In this document: piece by piece, positions 7,377-25,195 of the stretch
Numbering within the stretch: the stretch's first letter is position 1
How the letters are laid out: each line of letters opens with the position of its first letter
Source of the DNA: a bacterium
GTDB taxonomy: Bacteria > BMS3Abin14
Direction: 5' to 3'
Assembly (NCBI GenBank): GCA_029210965.1
Contig: JARGFZ010000025.1
Span: forward strand, 1-36,987
DNA length: 36,987 nucleotides
Notes under the pieces: generated by a model
Told to the model about the DNA's origin: nothing
What the model saw: only the letters and a program-made list of their open reading frames with translations
Database searches by the model: none
Translations under genes and position numbers: made by a program

Positions 7377-8264
7377 TCACTCGATGTTCTGCACCTGTTC
7401 ACGGACCTTTTCCAACCCGGTCTTAAAATCAACGACCCGTTCTGAGATCTCCGGGATCCCGGACTTTGATCCGATGGTATTGATCTCGCGCTGAATTTCC
7501 TGGATCAAAAAATCCAGACGCCTCCCGATCACACCGCCTTTTGACATAGCTTCCCGAAATGAATCCTGGTGGGTACGAAGACGAGTGATCTCCTCCGTTA
7601 CATCTGATCGCTGGGCCAGCATAGCTACTTCCACCTCAAGCCTTTGAGGCTCCACCCGTTCACCCAGGTCCAGGTCCGCCAGAAACTTTATAATACTCTG
7701 TCTGGCTCTTTCGGGAGCATCCGGGGCTATTTCTTCAATACCTCTGGATATCCCAGTCAATTCATCCATCCGCTGAACAAGGTCCTGGGCCAGAACGTCA
7801 CCTTCACCGTGCCTGTGTTTAACCATTTCATCCAGAGCCTGACCAGCGGTTTTCAGAATAACGGAATTGATCTCTTCATCTGCTTCCCTCTCGTTGCTCT
7901 GAACGATATCACCGGCCGCAAGGATGTGATCAAGACGGACCTTGTCGCCTATGGACGCGGCCACACTTTCGAGAGCTTTGGCCACAGCAAGAGCCCTGTC
8001 AGTGTCGACAACGAATTCCAGTGGGCGATCCTCAAGGATCAGAAATATCTCAACCTTTCCCCTGGATACGCGTTTTCTGGTCATGTTGCGCAGCTCAGGA
8101 TCCAGATGCATCAGGCTGCGAGGCGTCCTGACCATTACATCGAGATGCCTGTGGTTCAAGGAACGTACTTCCACAGTAATACGGCCAAACCCGGTCTCCC
8201 CGGTGGACCTGCCGTATCCGGTCATGCTTGCTACACCGCTCTTTTCCTTCGATGGTTTGTTCAA
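7377..8264 (-). CDS. YicC/YloC-family endoribonuclease
   Basis: The N-terminal signature SMTGYGRS and the following EVRSLNHRHLDVMVRTPRSL mark the YicC/YloC family. The C-terminal DUF1732-type part ends in MSKGGVIGRRLDFLIQEIQREINTIGSKSGIPEISERVVDFKTGLEKVREQVQNIE, which is strongly conserved in the family (shown here only as its key stretch IQREINTIGSKS). Members cleave RNA and take part in sRNA turnover. I start at the TTG at 8264, which overlaps the TGA of the DUF4416 gene (TTGA), giving 295 residues and translational coupling; the ATG at 8225 within SMTGYG is the alternative. It lies directly before gmk, as in many deltaproteobacteria. Confidence 0.88.
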   Translation of the reverse strand: MNKPSKEKSGVASMTGYGRSTGETGFGRITVEVRSLNHRHLDVMVRTPRSLMHLDPELRNMTRKRVSRGKVEIFLILEDRPLEFVVDTDRALAVAKALESVAASIGDKVRLDHILAAGDIVQSNEREADEEINSVILKTAGQALDEMVKHRHGEGDVLAQDLVQRMDELTGISRGIEEIAPDAPERARQSIIKFLADLDLGERVEPQRLEVEVAMLAQRSDVTEEITRLRTHQDSFREAMSKGGVIGRRLDFLIQEIQREINTIGSKSGIPEISERVVDFKTGLEKVREQVQNIE

Positions 8265-8782
8265 GTCAACAGAGCTTCCTTTCTGATCCTGCTGAAAAAT
8301 TCCATCACCACAGACTTTCGATAATCCGGGTATGTCCACTCCAGCAGATCGACCCCGCCATCCTTCCTGAACATATAGGAAAGCTCCCCGTAAATGCCCT
8401 TTGAAAGGTATATGCGATGGGAGTACGGTTTTGTCGTGGCCAGAACCAGGGATTCAAGTGACAGCAATCCGGGGTCCAGGTTTACGGTTCTCTTACTCCC
8501 AATGCTCATTTTCTTCTCGATGCGGTTTGTAACCAATTTGGCTTCTACAAGTGCGGCACGCACCACAGGTTCTGCAAAGACCCAGTAAGACCTTAAGAGG
8601 TTAGGACCCATCTCCCTTTCATAATAACTGGTGAAACTTTGGAAAACTTGCGGATCTGTTTTCCGGAGCAAGGGGCCAAACACATCTTCTGTTCTCGATT
8701 CAGCTTCACTAAGTGCCTCTTCCGACCTGGACAGGACACCCATCACAAGAAGAGCTGGTCCAGGGTGCTGTTGTATCCCCAC
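8261..8782 (-). CDS. DUF4416 family protein
   Basis: A 173-residue protein of a family with no known function. Conserved landmarks are visible in order: FTSYYEREMGPNLLRSYWVF, LVEAKLVTNRIE, VNLDPGLLSLESLVLATTKPYSHRIYL, SKGIYGEL and LEWTYPDY. I start at the GTG at 8782, which has AAGGAA at good spacing and lies two bases after the stop of the upstream gene. Its stop overlaps the proposed TTG start of yicC. Tight packing with yicC and gmk suggests a housekeeping role linked to RNA or nucleotide metabolism, but that is inference from context only. Confidence 0.85.
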   Translation of the reverse strand: MGIQQHPGPALLVMGVLSRSEEALSEAESRTEDVFGPLLRKTDPQVFQSFTSYYEREMGPNLLRSYWVFAEPVVRAALVEAKLVTNRIEKKMSIGSKRTVNLDPGLLSLESLVLATTKPYSHRIYLSKGIYGELSYMFRKDGGVDLLEWTYPDYRKSVVMEFFSRIRKEALLT

Positions 8783-8784
8783 CT

Positions 8785-10581
8785 TTATTCCTTTTTCTTT
8801 TCCAACTGCTCCTTGAGGTGCACTGCCTCTTCTTCCAATTCCCGGACCCTGGTGCTGTAATATTCCTCAAGCTGGTTGTGGCTTTTCAGGATCCTTGCAA
8901 CCTTGCTTCTCACGATGGCGTCGATACGTTTTTCATCGAAGCTCAGGGCCTGATTTTTCCGCCCCATGGCAACCTTCGGGGAAGAATTGTGAAGCTGGAC
9001 GATATTTTCCAGAACACTTTTATCTATAGGCGCGAACACCCTGTGGTCAAAATCTTCCAACACACCCTCCAGCTTTGATTTCTCTTTGGTCATCAGGACT
9101 GTTGTCGTCGATCGAAGATCAAGTAAACCTTTGAGGAGACAAGCAGCTGCAGAAGATTCCAGACCAGGTAATGAATCGGCGATTAAAATGATATCAGGCA
9201 ACTCCCTGTTAAGGGATTCGACAAGCTGTTGAGGATCTTTTGCTATCTGAAGCCTGATTTCCTGCTGGGTGCAAAATTTCGTAACTTTCCCGGCGAGGTC
9301 GCCATCAGATTCCGAAATCACCAACATTTTTAAAATACCAGATTGTTTTCCTTCGATCTCGGGTACCGTTAAAGGCAGGTACTTGGGAGCTTCCCTGGCG
9401 TTTTCAGCCATCCGGTTGAACACCTGCAAAAATTCTGAGATCTGGAACGGTTTATCCAGGTATTCATCAACATTGTATTCTTCCTGGACCTTTCCCTTAT
9501 ATTTATACTTTTTGTATACAGCAGTCAGGATCATAACCTTGGCAGTGTTGTCAGATTCCTCCTTGATCCTTCGGCAAAGTTCAAACCCATGGAGCTTGGG
9601 CATCATCGCATCGGTCACCACAAGGGGCGGCCTTTCTTTCATGTAGACCAGGAGCCCCTCCTGCCCATCCATTGCCGTAAAGACATTGAAACCTTCACCG
9701 GTCAAGATCTGTTCCAGAAGCAGTAGAATTTCACGTTCATCATCTACCACCAGGACCTTGGTGCCGGCATACTTCCCCGTTTTCGGTTGTCCCTTTTGCA
9801 AATCATCGAAACCCGTTGTATCCTCACCACCCGAGTGCATCCTGATTATTTCTGCGGCTTCCAGAGCCTCCTCCTCAAGGGCGGTTCCTTTCAGCAGATC
9901 CAGGAGCATGAGGGCCTGCTCATATTGGCCGTTTCGATCCACCTCCTTAGCCAATTGGAGGATTTCAGCCTCGTGTACTGATTCCGTCTCACCCGATCCT
10001 GCCAGGATTCGAAACAGTTCCTGGGCCTCTGTGTTTTCTGAATCCAGTTTAAGGGCCTCAATAACCAACCCCACAGCAGGTTCACCTTTCTTCGTCTTCA
10101 GACCCAGGGATGCTGCCTGAACAAAGGCCTGAGCTGCGTGAAACGGCATACCCGCGTCCCGGTTTAAAGTGGCGAACTGTATCCATTTTTCCATATCCTC
10201 GGGATCGACGCTGATAACCTTGTCGAAGACCGATACGGCCATCAAATGTTTGCCTTCCTTCCGATAGATATTGGACAGCTGGCCATAAACCTCTTTAGCT
10301 TCCTCATGGTTATCCATCTCCTCCAGAATTTCAGCGAGGAGATAGTAGGATTCGTGTTGAGACGGAAAGTCCCTCTCCATTTTTCTCAGGATGGCAATGG
10401 CTTTGTTCAGGTTGCGATGAGGACTGTCCGGGACTGAAAAAAGGCGTGCTGCCGCGAGGAAGTGTTTGGAAGCTTCTGCAACGTCACCCTTTTGTTGATA
10501 TAATCCGCCAAGGGAATTGTGCAGGTCGGGGCGGTTGGGGTGCTTTCTAAGTTGTTTTAAAAGTCCTTTTATCTGTTCCAT
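8785..10581 (-). CDS. TPR protein with an intact receiver and a degenerate second receiver
   Basis: A 598-residue cytoplasmic protein without signal peptide or membrane segment. Residues ~1-250 are helical TPR-like repeats (for example LHNSLGGLYQQKGDVAEASKHF and AIAILRKMERDFPSQHESYYLLAEIL). Residues ~275-390 form a receiver domain with VVDDE (acidic pair at 280/281), D324 in VVTDAMMP, a Thr in ILTAV and a Lys in YLDKPF. Residues ~417-530 fold like a second receiver: DIILIADSLPG keeps an Asp (469), but the lysine position reads VFAPID, so it is probably inactive. The last ~60 residues form a charged coiled coil. It is the downstream member of a four-gene group with an exported TPR protein, a tandem-receiver coiled-coil protein and an AMIN protein, and is best read as a phosphorylation-controlled scaffold. 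Confidence 0.85.
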   Translation of the reverse strand: MEQIKGLLKQLRKHPNRPDLHNSLGGLYQQKGDVAEASKHFLAAARLFSVPDSPHRNLNKAIAILRKMERDFPSQHESYYLLAEILEEMDNHEEAKEVYGQLSNIYRKEGKHLMAVSVFDKVISVDPEDMEKWIQFATLNRDAGMPFHAAQAFVQAASLGLKTKKGEPAVGLVIEALKLDSENTEAQELFRILAGSGETESVHEAEILQLAKEVDRNGQYEQALMLLDLLKGTALEEEALEAAEIIRMHSGGEDTTGFDDLQKGQPKTGKYAGTKVLVVDDEREILLLLEQILTGEGFNVFTAMDGQEGLLVYMKERPPLVVTDAMMPKLHGFELCRRIKEESDNTAKVMILTAVYKKYKYKGKVQEEYNVDEYLDKPFQISEFLQVFNRMAENAREAPKYLPLTVPEIEGKQSGILKMLVISESDGDLAGKVTKFCTQQEIRLQIAKDPQQLVESLNRELPDIILIADSLPGLESSAAACLLKGLLDLRSTTTVLMTKEKSKLEGVLEDFDHRVFAPIDKSVLENIVQLHNSSPKVAMGRKNQALSFDEKRIDAIVRSKVARILKSHNQLEEYYSTRVRELEEEAVHLKEQLEKKKE

Positions 10582-10593
10582 AGGTAAATTCCA

Positions 10594-10659
10594 GTGAACG
10601 GTGAAGGATGACGGGTGAGTGGGAAAAAACGTACAGTCTGTTCACTGTTCACTGTTCAC
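10594..10659 (+). repeat. Two heptamer arrays filling the gap between two TPR genes
   Basis: Positions 10594-10621 hold four degenerate GTGAnnG units, ending 13 bases before the ATG of the TPR-receiver gene. Positions 10639-10659 hold three perfect TGTTCAC units, ending five bases from the 3' end of the exported TPR gene (10664). Confidence 0.75.
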
Positions 10660-10663
10660 CTGT

Positions 10664-11212
10664 TTAGTAGTTCCCCTTCGCCTTGTTGTATTCTGACTCG
10701 GCCTTGCTGTATTCCTCCAACTCCATGTAGACCTCGCCAAGGTAAAAATGGATCTCCGGGTTTGACCCATCCTCAACGACTGCCTGGAGCAGGACCTGTT
10801 CGGCTTCCCTATATTTCCCCTCCATGAAGAGACTTAACCCTCGTTCAAGCAGCCCGCTTGATCGAGTGGTTTCCCTGCTCAGTCGCTCTTCAATGACCCT
10901 GACTCTTCGGGCTGCGTCGTCCCGTTGTATACCCGGCCGGCCAAGATCCATAAAACGTCTAAAATGCCTCAGGGCATCCCTGTCTTTGCCCCCATCTTCG
11001 TAAATCAGTCCCATCCTGTAGTGGGCTCTCATATCGTTTAGCCCCAACGCTTTTCGATAATACTGGAGAGCTGTCCTGTAGTCCTCGCTGGCGAAGTATT
11101 TCTCGCCCATTTCGTAGGGGTCCTTCCCCTTGTCTCCACCGGCCTGCACCTGCTGAGGCAACATCACACAGACCAGCAGTAGTGCTGTCAGGAGACGGAA
11201 AACAATTTTCAT
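10664..11212 (-). CDS. Exported TPR-repeat protein
   Basis: A 182-residue protein with a typical Sec signal peptide (MKIVFRLLTALLLVCVMLPQQVQA, cleavage expected after VQA) and no lipobox cysteine. The mature part holds TPR-like helices: PYEMGEKYFASEDYRTALQYYRKALGL, AHYRMGLIYEDGGKDRDALRHF, LLERGLSLFMEGKYREAEQVLLQAV and IHFYLGEVYMELEEYSKAESEY. I chose the ATG at 11212, preceded by AAGGAG, over the upstream GTG at 11236 that directly follows the neighbouring stop. It is probably a periplasmic interaction module. The preceding gene's product has a domain in the same compartment, so the two may bind each other; this is inference. Confidence 0.85.
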   Translation of the reverse strand: MKIVFRLLTALLLVCVMLPQQVQAGGDKGKDPYEMGEKYFASEDYRTALQYYRKALGLNDMRAHYRMGLIYEDGGKDRDALRHFRRFMDLGRPGIQRDDAARRVRVIEERLSRETTRSSGLLERGLSLFMEGKYREAEQVLLQAVVEDGSNPEIHFYLGEVYMELEEYSKAESEYNKAKGNY

Positions 11213-11236
11213 GTACTGCTCCTTTCCCGGAGTCAC

Positions 11237-14200
11237 TTACAAAAGCGACCCTATGCCGGACATGTCCCAGGTAAGTACCCGCATGGGAACCGCTCCAATA
11301 TCATAAAGAACGAGCTGCAGACCTGAAGGCTTAACTGCAAGCTCCTCTCTGGAAAATGCTACCGTCAAACCTACCTCATACAGGAAAACGGGGTTCATTT
11401 CTTTTCCTGCTGCGGACACCCGGCTTGATATGAATTTGCTCCCTTCAAGTTCTGCGGGGAAATGAGCCCTGATTTCCCTGCCGGAATGATCCCTTAACGC
11501 AATATGCTGTTCAAAACTATCGGCATAACCCGGGTAACCGCTCTTCAGATTTTTGTTGTAAACCGTAATGTAGTAGGCCCCTGAAAGGTTGTATGTCTTT
11601 GCCATATCGGTCATGGCTTTTTCCGTCTTCTCGCTGGTCCAACCCTCTTTTGCTGCCGTGTATTTTATAGCCGCCTCCAGCTCCTCCCTTGTATGAAGGG
11701 TGGCCTGGATCATCATGTCATCTGATACCGATTGTACCGTATTCCTGCGCCAGAGTTCTTCATAGGTCTCCTCAGGCCCCGAACTCGCGATCCAGGGTTT
11801 TGGAGGTTTGCCGGCCGGGATCTGCGGATCTGGAACAGCAGCTATGCCCGGCAGCGGTATGGCAACTTGACCCGAGCCGGCATCGTTCCGTGTTTTGGCC
11901 AGATATCCACCGGCAAAAATAACAAGGGCGGCGACCGCCGCAATGGCCGCTACTCCATACTTGCCCTTCCAGGTGACGACTTCGAGATATCGGCTGCGAC
12001 CAGGCATATGCATCGGGTAGATCCGTGCCGCTTCCTCGCCCATTAACCGGCGGCTTTCCCTGAGAGCGTCCTGGAAGGATTCCTTGAGCTCGCTCTCTTT
12101 TTCACTCCACATCGCCCTATCCTTACGGTAAGCCGACTTTTCCTCTTCCAGAGCTCTCATAAGGGATTCAACACTTTTCTCAAGGGCTGTTTCCTTGTCC
12201 TTCTGTTCCCTGAGAACATTTTGAGCTTCCAGAACCGTTTTCCCAAGCACCTCTTCCAACTGATCAAGACGGTCATCCAGATGAGAATTGCCCCTTGCCG
12301 CTGCTTGAGGTTCATCGTCCAGAACGGCTTTTCTTTGCTCCTCTTTCTTCTCTAACTGCTCACAGCGATTCCGGGTCTCTCGCAAAACAGCCTTTAGCTC
12401 CTTGTTATCCTTTTCCAGCAGCCCGATCTTTTCATCTTCCTTGGCAAATTCCAGAAACTGGGCCTTGAGTTCTTCGATCTTTCTATCGGCAGCGTTACGC
12501 AACTCCCTTTCAGATTCCAATTTTTTTTCCAAATCCAGGATCTTGTCATCAGCTTCATCACCCTCGTCCAGCTGACGTTTGGCTTGGGCAAGTTCATCTG
12601 CGAGGAACGCTTTTTCTTCAGCCTGACGGTCCAGCTGGCCCTCAAGATCCATACGTGCCTCAGTCTCACTGGCAGCAAGCTTTTGACTCTGCTCTCCCTC
12701 TTCCTTCAACACTTCAATCAGATTTTCCAACTCTAAATTTCTGGATCGAAGTTCATCCATATCTCCCTGGGAACCGGACAGTGTGTCTTTCTCTTTCTCG
12801 AGAAAATCAGCTCTTTTAAGAGCCTCTGCCAGTTCGTCCTTGAGAGCGGACAGTTCAGCTTTAGTATTGGCAGGCAAGGCATCCAGCTGCTTGCGAAGCT
12901 CGCTGGTTTCCGATTGAGCCTGCTCCAGCTGGGATTTGACCTCGTCAAGCCACTGGACATTGGACTCCGCTTCAGCAATGCGGGAGATAAGCTTCTGGTT
13001 CTCTTCTCCGGCCTTTTCCAGCTGCTGCTTGAGTGCGGCGGCGGTATCATCTTCTTTTTCCCTGTTCTGGATGATAGAATTTGCCTGGTCCTCAATCTCC
13101 TTTTTAGCCGCAATGGCAGCTTTAAGATCCCTGGTTAAACCTTCGATTACTTCCTGTAGCTTTTGGCGATCAGGCCCATTATCCCCGGGATCAGGTATCT
13201 CCCGGGACTTGAGTTCTTCAATTTCACTGTTAAGGAGTCTGTTCCGATTCTCCAGCTCCAGAGTCGCGGCATTGGCTTCTTCCAGCTTGCCAGCAAACTC
13301 TGTCAGCTGGGACTTTAACTCAAGGTTGGAATCAGCCTCCAGGTGTTTATCTTTTAACGCCACATTTTCACTCATCAAGGCGTCCAGCTCTTCCTGTTTT
13401 TCCTTCAGTTTCTGTTCTAACTTCCGGCCAAGCTCCTCAAGCTCCACTCGTCCCTGACCATCGGAAGACACCTCCACCAGCCTGGCCTGCAGTACACGGT
13501 TTTCCTCGGCCAGCCTCTCGGATTCGTTTCTGGACTCCTCAAATCGCTGCGTAGCAAGGGTGAGCTTGTCATGAAGACCACCTTGGGTCCCCTCCACCGT
13601 TTTCCTCATTTCAAACAGTTCAGCTTCCAACTGATCCTTTGTTTTTCTCACATTATCCAGATCAGCTTCCAGCTGAGCCTTTGCACTCTTCATACCCTTC
13701 AGATCACCTTCCAGCTGTAATTCCCTGGCAACCTTACCTTCCAGCTCCGCCTTTGCTTTTTCAAGCTTCCTCAAGAGTTGTGGATCACCGCCTTCTATAG
13801 CTGAAGCTATGGTTTCACCAGGTATGTCCGCGTCCTCCAACGGCACGAAAAATCCTGTTTTTCTCTCTATATTAATTGGAGCCACCTCCCCTAAAGAGGT
13901 GAATCGGCGAACGAGTTCATGGAGTTCCGATTTCATAAACGGTTTCTGCAGGTATGCGTCGGCGTGATATCTGAGCTTGGAGTGGCGCTCAAAGGATTCA
14001 TCATCAACCACCGCTGACATGAGGATGATGGGGATACTTTTTGTGCTTTCAAGCTTTCGAAGCATCTCGCAGACCACAAAACCGTTCAGATTGGGCATCT
14101 GGACATCCAGCAGGACCAGATCAGGCAGAAGTTCACCGGCCTTTTTATAGCCGACCTCTCCATCAGAAGCGATTTCGGTCCTGACGCCCAACTCTTTCAG

Positions 14201-14785
14201 GAAATCCGTGGTGATATCACAAATGTACCGGGAATCGTCCACAACAAGTATGGTGAGTTCCCCTGTTTCAACATGGACCTGTGCAGAATCCTGAGGTGCC
14301 TCAACAGGGAACTGTGAGATCTCGTGAGCATTTTGGGTCTCGGCAGGTTCTGGATGGTCCAGGGGTTCCTCAGCATCCGGCGTGATCGTCACTTCCGAAA
14401 ACCCAAAGTCATCACCAACAATACTCCGGATCATGTCAATGAGTACCTGGCCGCTGAACGGTTTAGGCAGGTAGCCTTCGGCATGTATACTCAGGCTGGA
14501 ATGTCTGTCAAGAAGCGCTTTTTCAACCTTCCCCGACATCATGATCACTGGAATATTTCTGGTTTCAGAGCGCTCTCTGAGTGCCTTGAAGAGGACAAAC
14601 CCCTGGATCTTGGGTATTTCAATGTCGGTGATGATGAGATCAGGCTGTTCTGCAACAGCCAGGGCAAGACCTGTCTCCCCATCCTGGGCGTTGACGATAT
14701 CGACATCGCTATCGGCCAGCAGGTCGTTTACGTAGGTTTGATAGAAGAGGTCGTCCTCAATTACGAGGAACTTCAGCTTTGCCAT
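11237..14785 (-). CDS. Tandem-receiver, giant coiled-coil membrane protein (FrzS/AglZ-like layout)
   Basis: An 1182-residue protein. Residues 1-125 are a receiver with the acidic cluster EDD (10-12), D54 in IITDIEIP, a Ser in MMSGK and a Lys in YLPKPF. Residues ~176-298 are a second receiver with VVDD (181-184), D227 in LLDVQMP, MSAVV and YLQKPF. Both carry an insertion of the form RHSxLxxHAxxYLxKPF, similar to receivers of Myxococcus FrzS/AglZ-type proteins. Residues ~320-925 are Glu/Lys/Leu/Gln-rich coiled coil. A single membrane segment follows at ~943-960 (GVAAIAAVAALVIFAGG), then a Pro-rich linker and a ~180-residue C-terminal domain of unknown type, placed outside the inner membrane by the simple topology. 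It is probably a phosphorylation-responsive polar or envelope scaffold. The difference from FrzS and AglZ is the tandem receivers plus membrane anchor. Homology to them is by layout, not proven. Confidence 0.85.
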   Translation of the reverse strand: MAKLKFLVIEDDLFYQTYVNDLLADSDVDIVNAQDGETGLALAVAEQPDLIITDIEIPKIQGFVLFKALRERSETRNIPVIMMSGKVEKALLDRHSSLSIHAEGYLPKPFSGQVLIDMIRSIVGDDFGFSEVTITPDAEEPLDHPEPAETQNAHEISQFPVEAPQDSAQVHVETGELTILVVDDSRYICDITTDFLKELGVRTEIASDGEVGYKKAGELLPDLVLLDVQMPNLNGFVVCEMLRKLESTKSIPIILMSAVVDDESFERHSKLRYHADAYLQKPFMKSELHELVRRFTSLGEVAPINIERKTGFFVPLEDADIPGETIASAIEGGDPQLLRKLEKAKAELEGKVARELQLEGDLKGMKSAKAQLEADLDNVRKTKDQLEAELFEMRKTVEGTQGGLHDKLTLATQRFEESRNESERLAEENRVLQARLVEVSSDGQGRVELEELGRKLEQKLKEKQEELDALMSENVALKDKHLEADSNLELKSQLTEFAGKLEEANAATLELENRNRLLNSEIEELKSREIPDPGDNGPDRQKLQEVIEGLTRDLKAAIAAKKEIEDQANSIIQNREKEDDTAAALKQQLEKAGEENQKLISRIAEAESNVQWLDEVKSQLEQAQSETSELRKQLDALPANTKAELSALKDELAEALKRADFLEKEKDTLSGSQGDMDELRSRNLELENLIEVLKEEGEQSQKLAASETEARMDLEGQLDRQAEEKAFLADELAQAKRQLDEGDEADDKILDLEKKLESERELRNAADRKIEELKAQFLEFAKEDEKIGLLEKDNKELKAVLRETRNRCEQLEKKEEQRKAVLDDEPQAAARGNSHLDDRLDQLEEVLGKTVLEAQNVLREQKDKETALEKSVESLMRALEEEKSAYRKDRAMWSEKESELKESFQDALRESRRLMGEEAARIYPMHMPGRSRYLEVVTWKGKYGVAAIAAVAALVIFAGGYLAKTRNDAGSGQVAIPLPGIAAVPDPQIPAGKPPKPWIASSGPEETYEELWRRNTVQSVSDDMMIQATLHTREELEAAIKYTAAKEGWTSEKTEKAMTDMAKTYNLSGAYYITVYNKNLKSGYPGYADSFEQHIALRDHSGREIRAHFPAELEGSKFISSRVSAAGKEMNPVFLYEVGLTVAFSREELAVKPSGLQLVLYDIGAVPMRVLTWDMSGIGSLL

Positions 14786-14811
14786 CGAGATCCGGTTTCC
14801 CTTTAGCTGCG

Positions 14812-14836
14812 CAGCTCCTGTGTATACCAGGAGCTG
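14812..14836 (-). promoter_or_regulatory. Hairpin in the leader of the tandem-receiver gene
   Basis: Perfect 9-bp arms CAGCTCCTG (14812-14820) and CAGGAGCTG (14828-14836) around a 7-nt loop, 27 nt upstream of the ATG. There is no T-run. It could control translation or mRNA stability, or bind a regulator. Confidence 0.4.
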
Positions 14837-14879
14837 TCCCGTGGGAAAAGTAGGTGAGAGGAGGAACTATCCTGATGCC

Positions 14880-14930
14880 CTCGCAAAAAATCTCTTCGAG
14901 CCATTTTGCGAGATGGATTTCTTGCGAGCC
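14880..14930 (-). repeat. Short relative of the TTTTTGCGA repeat family
   Basis: CTCGCAAAA (14880-14888) pairs with TTTTGCGAG (14904-14912), with TCTCTTCGAGCC between them. The same TCTTCGAGC and TTGCGA blocks occur in the longer elements at 17024-17190 and 29288-29410. It lies directly after the AMIN gene. Confidence 0.5.
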
Positions 14931-14936
14931 CATCAA

Positions 14937-16793
14937 TTACTGTGTGGTGACCTTCAGGACTACGGACTGTCCTTCCTGGTAAACGTCATATCCGATCCTG
15001 GTTGGCAGGATCTCAATAGAGACCCTGACCCCGCGGCCATCTCCTGCCAACGGCTCCACATATACCTCGCCAACGATCTTTTCACCACCGCCTATGCGGT
15101 CAGGCAGTTCCACCAACATGTCCGGAAACTCTATGTCTATCCACTTTCGGGACAGCTTTGCCGAGGTTGTAACATTGTAATCTGTCATTCCGTTGGTGGA
15201 GAAGGTGATCAGCGCTTTACTTATATCCTCAACTACAGCGATCCTGTCCAGAATCCCGGGACGCAGGGGCCTTATATTGGCAACCACAGGAGAGGGGCTC
15301 TCGGGGGTTTTAACTGGTGCTGTTTTCTTGACCTGTGGTTTTCTTTTTACCGGAGCAGGTGCCTGGGCTTGGGGCCTCGACGACAGTGTCGTCTGTTCAG
15401 AAACCCGTTTCTCCATCAACCTGGATTCCCGGCGAGCTCTCATCGCCTCCTCCCTGGCCTTCTGCGCGGACATCCGCGCCTGTTCCTTTTTGTCTACAGG
15501 CGATGCCGCAGGCACGGTCTTTCCTGAACCTTCCAGACTTGCTGTGATCTCGAAAGATTCCGCCTTTTCATATGAAACTTTCAGTTTGGCCACACCGTCT
15601 TTAAAGGCGCCTGGCATAATTACGTTCGGATTGAGGATCCCGGTCCCTGTTGAATTTAACCTGACAATGGACCCCGGGGGAATCGATGATGTCTTGTTAC
15701 CGAACTCATCCTCGGAAGTGATCCTGATCTCAAACGGTTCACCCGCCATGGCAGAATCAGGTGTAAGTATTCTGAGGTTTTTGACCCCGGCGGGAACTAT
15801 GAGAACGCTGAAATCACCGGAGATATTACTCTGAAGCTCAGATATTTTGACAGTGTGCTCCCCTGCCGATCTCATGACGATCCCGACTCTCGCGACACCA
15901 TCACTGAACGCAGAAGGTGGTATCAGGTCAGGGGCAGTTTGAGCATCTCTGGAATAAAGACGAACACCCTTGTAGCGGCTGCCGTAATCGGTCACCAGGT
16001 TGCCATAGGAATCAAGTGCACGGATCGTTAGAGCGAATTCCCTTCCCGCAACAGACTGGCCGGAAGCGATCTTTATATCGAAGGAGCCAAGGGGCGCGGG
16101 GAGAACCTTTATAGAGGCAGAGGATCCGGACAACCCTCTTTTCTTGTCCCGCAGGTTTACAGATTGTTCCCCGTGAGCTCTGAACCTGATGGGGAGTTCA
16201 TAAACCCCTCCGGCCCTGCTGATAATCTCCCCGACCACTGAGGCAGCACTATCCTCCAGAGAAATGGATTGGGCCTGCGGGAGGTATCCATAGGCGATGT
16301 TACCATGAGCATCAACAGCCTGTATGGACATGATAACTTCCTCCCCCACTTCAGCCCTGGGAGGAAGGTCAACCCGTAGTTCCACAGGACGGCCTGTTTT
16401 TATCGTCAGGTTCCATTGGTCCAGTACCTTGCCCTTGTCATCACGAAGAAACAGGGTCAGTTCCCCCATTTTCTCCGTGCGGACACTATACTGAAATCCT
16501 GGGACATAGTTTTCGGGGGTAAGTATGGATGGCTGCACACTGGCCGCCTGAGAAACACTGAGCGTCAGGGAAGTTTCAGGTTTCCAGTTTTCAGCCATGA
16601 GGTTCCCATAACGGTCAACAAAGGTGACAGCCACCTCAAACTCTACTCCAGCCATGACCTCCTCCGGCACGCTGGCCACAATATGGTCAAAGGCAGCTGG
16701 TTTTATGGTGATACTCTGAGCGGTGTTAGGAGTGAATGATAAAACACTTATAACGGCAAGAACGGCAAGACAGCCAGCCCGTCTGAAGGACAT
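14937..16793 (-). CDS. Exported protein with Ig-like repeats and a C-terminal AMIN domain
   Basis: A 618-residue envelope protein. The start at 16793 follows AAAGGAGAG and gives a signal peptide (FRRAGCLAVLAVISVLSF). The body contains about four Ig/filamin-like beta modules, each with a DxYGN or DxxGN turn (DRYGN, DAHGN, DSYGN, DEFGN). An Ala/Arg/Lys/Pro-rich, probably unfolded linker precedes residues ~513-618, which match an AMIN domain (IAVVEDISKALITFS, WIDIEFPDMLVELP, VYVEPLAGDGRGVRVSIEI, GQSVVLKV). AMIN domains bind peptidoglycan or target proteins to sites in the periplasm, as in AmiC and PilQ. No amidase or secretin domain is present. As the first gene of the four-gene group, it probably anchors the complex to the cell wall. 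Confidence 0.87.
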   Translation of the reverse strand: MSFRRAGCLAVLAVISVLSFTPNTAQSITIKPAAFDHIVASVPEEVMAGVEFEVAVTFVDRYGNLMAENWKPETSLTLSVSQAASVQPSILTPENYVPGFQYSVRTEKMGELTLFLRDDKGKVLDQWNLTIKTGRPVELRVDLPPRAEVGEEVIMSIQAVDAHGNIAYGYLPQAQSISLEDSAASVVGEIISRAGGVYELPIRFRAHGEQSVNLRDKKRGLSGSSASIKVLPAPLGSFDIKIASGQSVAGREFALTIRALDSYGNLVTDYGSRYKGVRLYSRDAQTAPDLIPPSAFSDGVARVGIVMRSAGEHTVKISELQSNISGDFSVLIVPAGVKNLRILTPDSAMAGEPFEIRITSEDEFGNKTSSIPPGSIVRLNSTGTGILNPNVIMPGAFKDGVAKLKVSYEKAESFEITASLEGSGKTVPAASPVDKKEQARMSAQKAREEAMRARRESRLMEKRVSEQTTLSSRPQAQAPAPVKRKPQVKKTAPVKTPESPSPVVANIRPLRPGILDRIAVVEDISKALITFSTNGMTDYNVTTSAKLSRKWIDIEFPDMLVELPDRIGGGEKIVGEVYVEPLAGDGRGVRVSIEILPTRIGYDVYQEGQSVVLKVTTQ

Positions 16794-17023: not shown

Positions 17024-17190
17024 ATGGATGATGGAATCGCAAAATATCCATCAATCAGGATGTAGGCCTAGCGTGCATCCTGGGGTGGGGGCCACGCCAA
17101 TGGCGTGGGGCGGATTCACTTCGCCTGGCGGGGGAGTCACGCCAGCGGCGTGACCGCCCTTCAGATGGCTCGAAGAGATTTATTGCGAAG
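17024..17190 (-). repeat. Multi-hairpin element, diverged member of the TTTTTGCGA family
   Basis: The argC-AMIN gap holds a chain of hairpins: GATGGA/TCCATC (17030-17052), CAGGATG/CATCCTG (17056-17082), CCACGCC/GGCGTGG (17092-17108) and GTCACGCC/GGCGTGAC (17136-17154). It closes with TCGAAGAGATTTATTGCGA. On the minus strand it begins with TTCGCAATAAATCTCTTCGA, like the elements at 14880 and 29288. There is no ORF; together with the AMIN leader it accounts for the gap 16794-17206. Confidence 0.55.
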
Positions 17191-23856: not shown

Positions 23857-25195
23857 CTAGCAGGCCGTTGAAAAATTGGTCTTTAGCCAGCCTTTTTTCT
23901 CGTAATGTACTTTTTTTCTGATCTTTGACAATTTGTTTTCGTTGGTTTTGAGCTGTTAACACCTTATTTAAGAGTGATGTTTTGTTGTTTTGTATCTCCT
24001 TATCCTAAGGTGCCCTGATCAGGTTGCGCATTCGAACCAGGTTGTAGGCCCTTGCTGTCAGTGTAAAAACACTCTCGACGCGATCAAGGCCTCGATGGCG
24101 TGTCTTACGCAAATACCCTGTCGTCTTGATCCAACCGAAGATTTCTTCAACCCGCTTGCGCACCTTCTGACTCACCTGGTAGCCCGCATGCCGTGTTGTT
24201 CGATCGTCGATGGCCTTACTGTTTACTTTCTTAGCCACATGAGGCGTTGCCGAGAGCCCACGCAAGCCGTTCACAAAATTCGGGACATCATAACCTTTGT
24301 CAGCTCCGACCGTTACGCGATGAGTGCCAGGGATATCTTCAACCATATCGAGACCAGCATCCCATTCGGCGGTTCCGTTGGCCAAGGTTAAGCGGCTGTC
24401 TACAATCAGACCGTTGCGGTTCTCCATCAGGGCATGGCCCATGAAGCAGATTTTCGACTCCTTGCCTAATCCCTTTCTAAGCAGCCTGGCGTCTGGATCC
24501 GTAATTGATTGATGGGTGTCGTTCTTGCGCTTTTACCCTTTGAAATCGACATCGGAGTTTCGCCCGCCGCTTGTTGGAGGAACCTGGTTGTTCTCGTCCT
24601 TGGGCCGAAAGCTCTTCATTGAAGCCCACGCTTCGATCAAGGTGCCATCAACAGTAAAATGTTCGTTTGACAGTAACCCTGCGCGCTCAGCCTGACCTTT
24701 AATTGCTTGAAAGAAAGCTGTGGCCACGCCATGCTGGATCAAACGGTCCCGGTTCTTGGAAAAAGTGGAGTGGTCCCAGACCTTATCGTCCATGGACATG
24801 CCCACGAATCAACGAAATAACAAATTGTAATCCAGTTGCTCGACCAGCATCCGCTCGCTGCGGATCGTGTAGAGCACTTGCAGCAATAAGGCACGCAGCA
24901 ACTGTTCCGGAGGAATAGACGGACGGCCCACTTCAGAATACATGTCCTTGAATAACGGGGCCAGATCAGAAAAAGCTGTATCCACCATGTTCCGGATGGG
25001 TCGTAACGGATGGTCCTTGGGAACACGTGCTTCCGGTGATATATAACTGAACATGCCTTGCTGTTGTCTGTCCTCGCCGCGCATAACGTTTCTCCTTTAA
25101 TAACAAACGGTTATGCGTATATTTATAACGAAAAAACAGCCATTACTCCAGTAAATTCAATAAATCAGATGGGCTGTTTTTCAACAACCTGCTAG
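23857..25195 (-). mobile_element. IS5-family insertion sequence with CTAG target duplication
   Basis: Terminal inverted repeats CAGGCCGTTGAAAAA (23861-23875) and TTTTTCAACAACCTG (25177-25191) differ at two of 15 positions. CTAG directly flanks both ends (23857-23860 and 25192-25195), so the element is 1331 bp with a 4-bp target duplication. It contains one transposase frame, now broken by two stops. The flank at 23834-23859 carries a TAGTGCAC/GTGCACTA palindrome that may have been part of the target. Confidence 0.9.
24005..25084 (-). pseudogene. IS5-family transposase broken by two nonsense mutations
   Basis: A single uninterrupted frame of 360 codons with two in-frame stops. It opens MRGEDRQQQGMFSY and has the family stretches PKDHPLRPIRNMVD, GRPSIPPEQLLRALLLQVLY and LDYNLLFR. 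A TGA at 24811-24809 follows, where relatives have Trp (LLFRWFVG), so TGG became TGA. FTVDGTLIEAWASMKSFRP carries the first catalytic Asp. A TAA at 24535-24533 stands where relatives have Glu (FHGEKR), so GAA became TAA. GADKGYD and RVEEIFGWIKT supply the second Asp and the Glu. No indels are seen, which points to point-mutation decay after insertion. Confidence 0.9.

Follow-up and report, generated by a model that had tools for sequence, protein, structure and literature searches.

Four adjacent genes in a bacterium of the GTDB lineage BMS3Abin14 encode candidate wall-binding, receiver and tetratricopeptide repeat (TPR) parts, and the question is whether these parts form one system and what it would do. 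The genes, called A, B, C and D here, lie at positions 8785-16793 of contig JARGFZ010000025.1 (assembly GCA_029210965.1), whose whole stretch of 36,987 nucleotides is referred to as the window. A first-pass annotation had read them as a candidate receiver-controlled scaffold spanning the cell envelope. It turned out that the constant core is the pair B, a membrane-anchored protein with two receivers and a long coiled coil, and D, a TPR protein with receivers of its own, while the four-gene set is the fullest form of the module and the exception.

Conservation of the gene neighbourhood

For the home phylum, which is small and uncultured, we compared 12 genomes of one family and eight genera, the home genome being G000. 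All 12 encode B and 11 encode D; in the remaining one, G002, a gap of undetermined bases (N) interrupts the assembly at the position of D. Where contigs allow, the gene order is argC, A, B, (C), D, (DUF4416), yicC, gmk, and in G005 argC was not seen immediately upstream of B. The conserved neighbourhood to which the first-pass annotation had looked for a check thus exists, at a single site next to argC and yicC/gmk in those genomes whose assembly permits the reading.

Two genomes, G002 and G004, seemed to carry the genes apart, which the same annotation had named as counting against its proposal. This reading was rejected, as the breaks coincide with 100-N scaffold gaps, which truncate A and C in G002 and B and D in G004. 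Synteny in both is unreliable because the 100-N joins fall inside the cluster (in these single-scaffold assemblies, at L071:9330-9429, L072:6541-6640, L069:6376-6475 and L069:11354-11453).

The distances between B and between D proteins track those of Gmk and YicC (r 0.89-0.96), which fits vertical inheritance with the housekeeping genes. In comparison with a congener, the ratio of nonsynonymous to synonymous substitution rates (dN/dS) is 0.10-0.23 for A, B, C and D, not above the values for the neighbours argC and yicC, so the four open reading frames (ORFs) are under purifying selection.

Domain architecture of the four gene products

All four ORFs were confirmed within 8785-16793 on the minus strand, as are all domains given below. 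In transcription order, the gaps are 151 bases between A and B, 24 between B and C, 82 between C and D and 2 between D and the following DUF4416 gene, in agreement with the short same-strand spacing described at first reading.

Gene B (11237..14785; 1182 aa) encodes two receivers, a coiled coil, a transmembrane helix and a periplasmic domain, in this order. Both receivers, at 14420..14776 and 13910..14251, are found by Pfam (PF00072) above the cut-off with 1e-42. The phosphorylation residues of receiver 1 (EDD, D, S, K) are intact in every phylum member where they are readable, while those of receiver 2 are intact in phylum members and degenerate in a second phylum. The coiled coil covers residues 326-920 (~600 residues; 12026..13810), where the heptad periodicity reaches a power of 4.54 at 3.5 residues, while none of 500 shuffles exceeded 2.15. 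The sole hydrophobic span in B is the single transmembrane helix, residues 940-965 (11891..11968), and the topology predicted from it places the receivers in the cytosol and the last domain in the periplasm. This orphan domain, residues 1008-1182 (~175 residues; 11240..11764), has no Pfam match, and a PDB sequence search with it gave chance-level matches only. The domain, for which the first-pass annotation had suggested profile searches, occurs in 6 genomes of the home phylum and in a single one from elsewhere. Its predicted structure has low confidence (predicted local distance difference test, pLDDT, 63), and the best fold match, 3fjv (E 3e-3, TM-score 0.57), was not used, being a structural-genomics protein without an assigned function.

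Gene D (8785..10581; 598 aa) encodes a predicted cytosolic protein, in which a TPR region (9832..10581; Pfam) is followed by two receivers. The first (9421..9756; Pfam 5e-25) is above the PF00072 cut-off, contains the acidic pair, the phospho-Asp, the Ser/Thr and the Lys, and has an invariant TAVYKKYKYK motif. The second (8992..9339) is degenerate and leads into a charged helical tail that is conserved; the acidic pair and the Lys are missing in all eight sequences (8 of 8), and judged by these residues it is a pseudo-receiver under the definition of PMC12632262. Gene C (10664..11212; 182 aa) encodes a putative exported TPR protein (Pfam TPR with an N-terminal signal-like span).

Gene A (14937..16793; 618 aa) encodes a putative exported protein with immunoglobulin-like (Ig) repeats and a C-terminal AMIN-like domain. 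Hydropathy and sequence reveal a signal-peptide-like N terminus, residues 1-26 (16716..16793). Four Ig-like repeats (15504..16715) follow, marked by a D-x-x-G-N motif every ~101 residues (60, 161, 261, 362), with a weak Big_1 match below the cut-off. By direct reading, the linker behind them (15270..15503) is charged and helical, then proline/lysine-rich, and its charged part is also found in the second-phylum homologue.

The AMIN domain assigned to A at first reading is borne out as a divergent form, residues 509-618 (~110 residues; 14940..15269). Pfam PF11741 (AMIN) has no match above its cut-off in any of the 8 A-family members, and the domain is called a divergent AMIN domain because of profile comparison and predicted fold, despite this miss. 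A 24-domain PF11741 profile is collinear with the profile of the A domain across the whole domain, with a score of 31.4, while 60 column shuffles gave 16.7 or less, the reversed profile 10.2 and an unrelated control 12.2. The model predicted from an eight-sequence alignment (pLDDT 89.8) has E. coli AmiC (4bin; Foldseek E 2.6e-3, TM-score 0.64) as its best solved match and the PilQ B2 domain (4aqz; E 4.1e-2, TM-score 0.69) as a close second. No Foldseek match reaches 1e-3, and the Campylobacter flagellar scaffold PflA and small heat-shock proteins score near these two. A PDB sequence search with the domain gave chance-level matches only. On the whole, the domain contents given in the first-pass annotation were reproduced for all four proteins: by the signal-like span and repeats in A, by Pfam, hydropathy and periodicity in B, and by Pfam and the residue check in C and D.

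Occurrence outside the home phylum

Beyond the home phylum, the periplasmic domain of B has a match in a single genome, G158 (E 1.5e-33), which belongs to a second phylum. On its 8.6-kb contig, a relative of A, a relative of B and a TPR protein lie on one strand in the same order. The A relative (30% identity, E 2e-23) comprises the end of an Ig part, the charged linker and an AMIN-like domain. The B relative has two receiver-like domains, whose fold is just under the Pfam cut-off (27.8 of 30.2 bits), a long coiled coil, a transmembrane helix and the periplasmic domain. The third protein, with TPR and coiled coil, has 1033 residues and a signal-like start, and its gene overlaps that of B by 4 bases. 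Next, in place of D, comes a nitrilase-like gene, read from sequence alone, and the A-B-TPR set sits in a different gene context from that of the home phylum.

An origin of the G158 contig in contaminating home-phylum DNA was considered and rejected, as its GC content and tetranucleotides fit the G158 genome and the identity is 33-36%. The other genome of the second phylum gave no match. The B relative (L154:4302-7690) has one frameshift, which may come from misassembly, in a GC-rich part of the coiled coil. Beyond the home phylum, no full-length D turned up among 386 genomes, where only receiver-level matches appeared. In a scan of a genome collection, all D-type proteins came from uncultured records with the titles bacterium, Proteobacteria or Pseudomonadota, barring two weak receiver-only matches.

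Proposed mechanism and alternative explanations

We give an even chance to the reading that B and D build a hub at the inner membrane, with A and C as an optional wall-binding arm. B would dimerise or bundle through its long coiled coil and be held by its one transmembrane helix, while its two receivers would face the cytosol as docking faces that recruit D. The intact receiver and the pseudo-receiver of D may tune or multimerise this contact, and orphan kinases probably set the occupancy of the B receivers by phosphorylation in the home phylum. On the periplasmic side, the C-terminal domain of B, or C, or both, would contact A, whose AMIN domain may bind peptidoglycan or another AMIN partner. 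Such binding would fix the hub at an envelope site, for example the septum, the pole or a machine. The model is supported by the adjacency of B and D wherever they are assembled and by the A-B-TPR order that recurs in another phylum, as well as by the conserved receiver sites, the predicted AMIN fold, the coiled-coil, transmembrane and signal-like spans and the vertical inheritance. It is drawn by analogy with four precedents compared below: FrzS with SgmX for the recruitment of D, and PodJ, HubP and the AMIN domains for the wall arm.

Several results weigh against this reading. The trans-envelope arm is not universal, since A, C and the periplasmic domain of B are dispensable in several genera. 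A occurs in 9 of 12 phylum genomes (missing in G005, G008 and G010); it carries Ig repeats in five (G000, G001, G002, G004, G006) and is a short protein of signal peptide and AMIN domain in four (G003, G007, G009, G011). C is present in 4 of 11 determinable genomes (G000, G001, G002, G006), its search having covered 9 of the 12, with the remaining B-D junctions read directly. The periplasmic domain of B is found in 6 of 11 judgeable genomes (G000, G001, G002, G006, G007, G011; G004 left out), and B stops soon after the transmembrane helix in G003, G005, G008, G009 and G010. What stands of the proposed four-gene unit is therefore a neighbourhood kept across the phylum and partly in a second one, but not a fixed set of four. 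Besides, no conserved kinase neighbours the module, D was not found in the second phylum, and the phospho-Asp is absent from both receivers of B in G158. Control through the receivers, as first proposed, is plausible in the home phylum with its intact phosphorylation residues; the second-phylum B, however, has lost these residues. Because of this loss, seen in one genome and hence thin evidence, docking rather than phosphorylation is suggested as the older or more constant role of the receivers.

Since the flanking block is itself conserved, finding the genes side by side in 12 related genomes carries no independent weight, and A-B and D might be unrelated genes caught in the inherited rplM-rpsI-argC ... 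yicC-gmk-relA block. However, the A-B linkage recurs outside this block in another phylum and a receiver architecture is common to B and D; we consider chance inheritance in the block rather unlikely, while for D alone this explanation may hold. B and D might also belong to a phosphorelay hub running from soluble to membrane proteins, in which they would be phosphate sinks or integrators without a structural role, and A and C chance or loose neighbours. The three intact receivers with no enzymatic output, the many receiver proteins of the genome and the variability of A and C fit such a relay, but a sink needs neither a ~600-residue coiled coil nor a transmembrane helix, and the A-B-TPR linkage recurs where the B receivers lack the phosphorylation site, which makes a pure relay quite improbable in our view.

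A link to pili had been among the roles first considered, and the module could serve specifically to place or regulate a type IVa pilus or another secretin machine, with A as an AMIN partner of PilQ. Proteins with several AMIN domains occur in most genomes of the phylum, the pil-like operon of G001 encodes a PilQ that contains AMIN domains, and the best NCBIfam matches of C include PilW/Tgl-like TPRs, far below the cut-off. We nevertheless regard this role as unlikely: the block contains no pilus gene, A is absent from the three genomes named above although AMIN-bearing proteins exist there, and in the home genome (99% complete) the full module stands beside only two secretins, one in a type II secretion system (T2SS)-like operon and one in a Tad-like locus. 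Searches of this genome gave neither a PilQ-type secretin nor a PF11741 match, and a link to a type IVa pilus is accordingly not supported there; the module does not require one, unless such genes lie in assembly gaps. The congener G001 has, besides its PilQ with AMIN repeats, an AMIN amidase (compare L155, L156), and the difference from the home genome reflects a real loss or an assembly gap. A defence system was dropped as a reading, since PADLOC matches cover the receivers only.

Flanking genes and other features of the window

Past D, the DUF4416 gene (8261..8782, minus strand) is followed by yicC, gmk, rpoZ and relA, and upstream of A lie argC, rpsI and rplM. The DUF4416 gene belongs to the conserved flank with yicC and gmk and is probably outside the module; it is missing in G009 and G010, where D and yicC are still close together. 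Promoter and terminator scans gave scores no better than those of shuffles. The intergenic region between argC and A (413 bases) contains GC-rich imperfect direct and inverted repeats at 17079-17158, with no Rfam match. A DDE transposase fragment of 145 aa is located at 24005-24442 of the window, amid housekeeping genes. Beyond relA, the plus strand encodes a sensor histidine kinase (sCache, HAMP, PAS) at 548-2365; in the relatives read it was not seen next to relA, so there is no evidence that it serves the receivers of B and D.

Comparison with known systems

The first-pass annotation had not recognised the layout as a described system, and it matches none in the domain libraries and literature searched. 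Parts of the module resemble known hub and receiver-coiled-coil proteins, and it is a member of none tested. Among the latter is FrzS of Myxococcus xanthus, whose partner SgmX is a TPR protein. FrzS, a coiled-coil protein, binds this pilus activator with its pseudo-receiver, which places pilus activation at the pole (PMC12632262). B is like FrzS in combining an N-terminal receiver and a long coiled coil in one protein (PMC1974792), and the recruitment of a partner via the receiver face, seen in FrzS (PMC12632262), would be a further likeness; the second-phylum B also resembles FrzS in that the phospho-Asp is absent. In the passages considered of PMC1974792, FrzS has one pseudo-receiver, a 258-residue coiled coil and a C-terminal tail, with a transmembrane helix not described. 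B, in contrast, has two intact receivers, a ~600-residue coiled coil, a transmembrane helix and a periplasmic domain, and D has its own receivers, so the FrzS/AglZ type of a single pseudo-receiver with coiled coil does not describe B.

PodJ (PMC8980812) and HubP (PMC8789113) are coiled-coil/transmembrane hubs placed by wall-binding periplasmic parts. B has the coiled coil and the single transmembrane helix of this type, while the wall-binding candidate is the separate protein A. Caulobacter PodJ shares cytosolic coiled coils, one transmembrane anchor and a wall-binding periplasmic part (PMC8980812), but is without receivers and has its periplasmic TPR and peptidoglycan-binding domain in one chain, parts whose putative counterparts here are spread across B, C and A. 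Vibrio HubP and Pseudomonas FimV are likewise membrane hubs that join wall-binding periplasmic and TPR cytosolic functions, and a periplasmic partner that HubP recruits, VC2232 (MotW), has Ig repeats (PMC8789113); they differ in having LysM instead of AMIN, TPR fused into the hub and no receivers. AMIN domains serve wall binding and the positioning of PilQ (PMC10653833). The domain of A shares with those of AmiC and PilQ the predicted fold and a collinear profile match, but lies below Pfam detection and, unlike them, is joined to neither an amidase nor a secretin: it follows either a signal peptide, with no other domain, or Ig repeats.

Most of what is known of envelope landmark scaffolds comes from a small number of model proteobacteria. 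As a tentative and still doubtful proposal, the tandem-receiver coiled-coil hub, the receiver-bearing TPR effector and the separate Ig/AMIN wall anchor may constitute a so far undescribed landmark system that crosses the envelope in uncultured phyla. Its receiver pair would be a docking module, phosphorylatable in one phylum and made of pseudo-receivers in another. The relation of phosphorylatable to phospho-dead receivers is described as an open question in a review of pseudo-receivers (PMC12632262). If the proposal is true, a conserved module with receivers coupled directly to a membrane coiled coil, joined in part of its range by an AMIN wall anchor, would represent a new layout, and would offer a natural comparison of both receiver kinds in one architecture.

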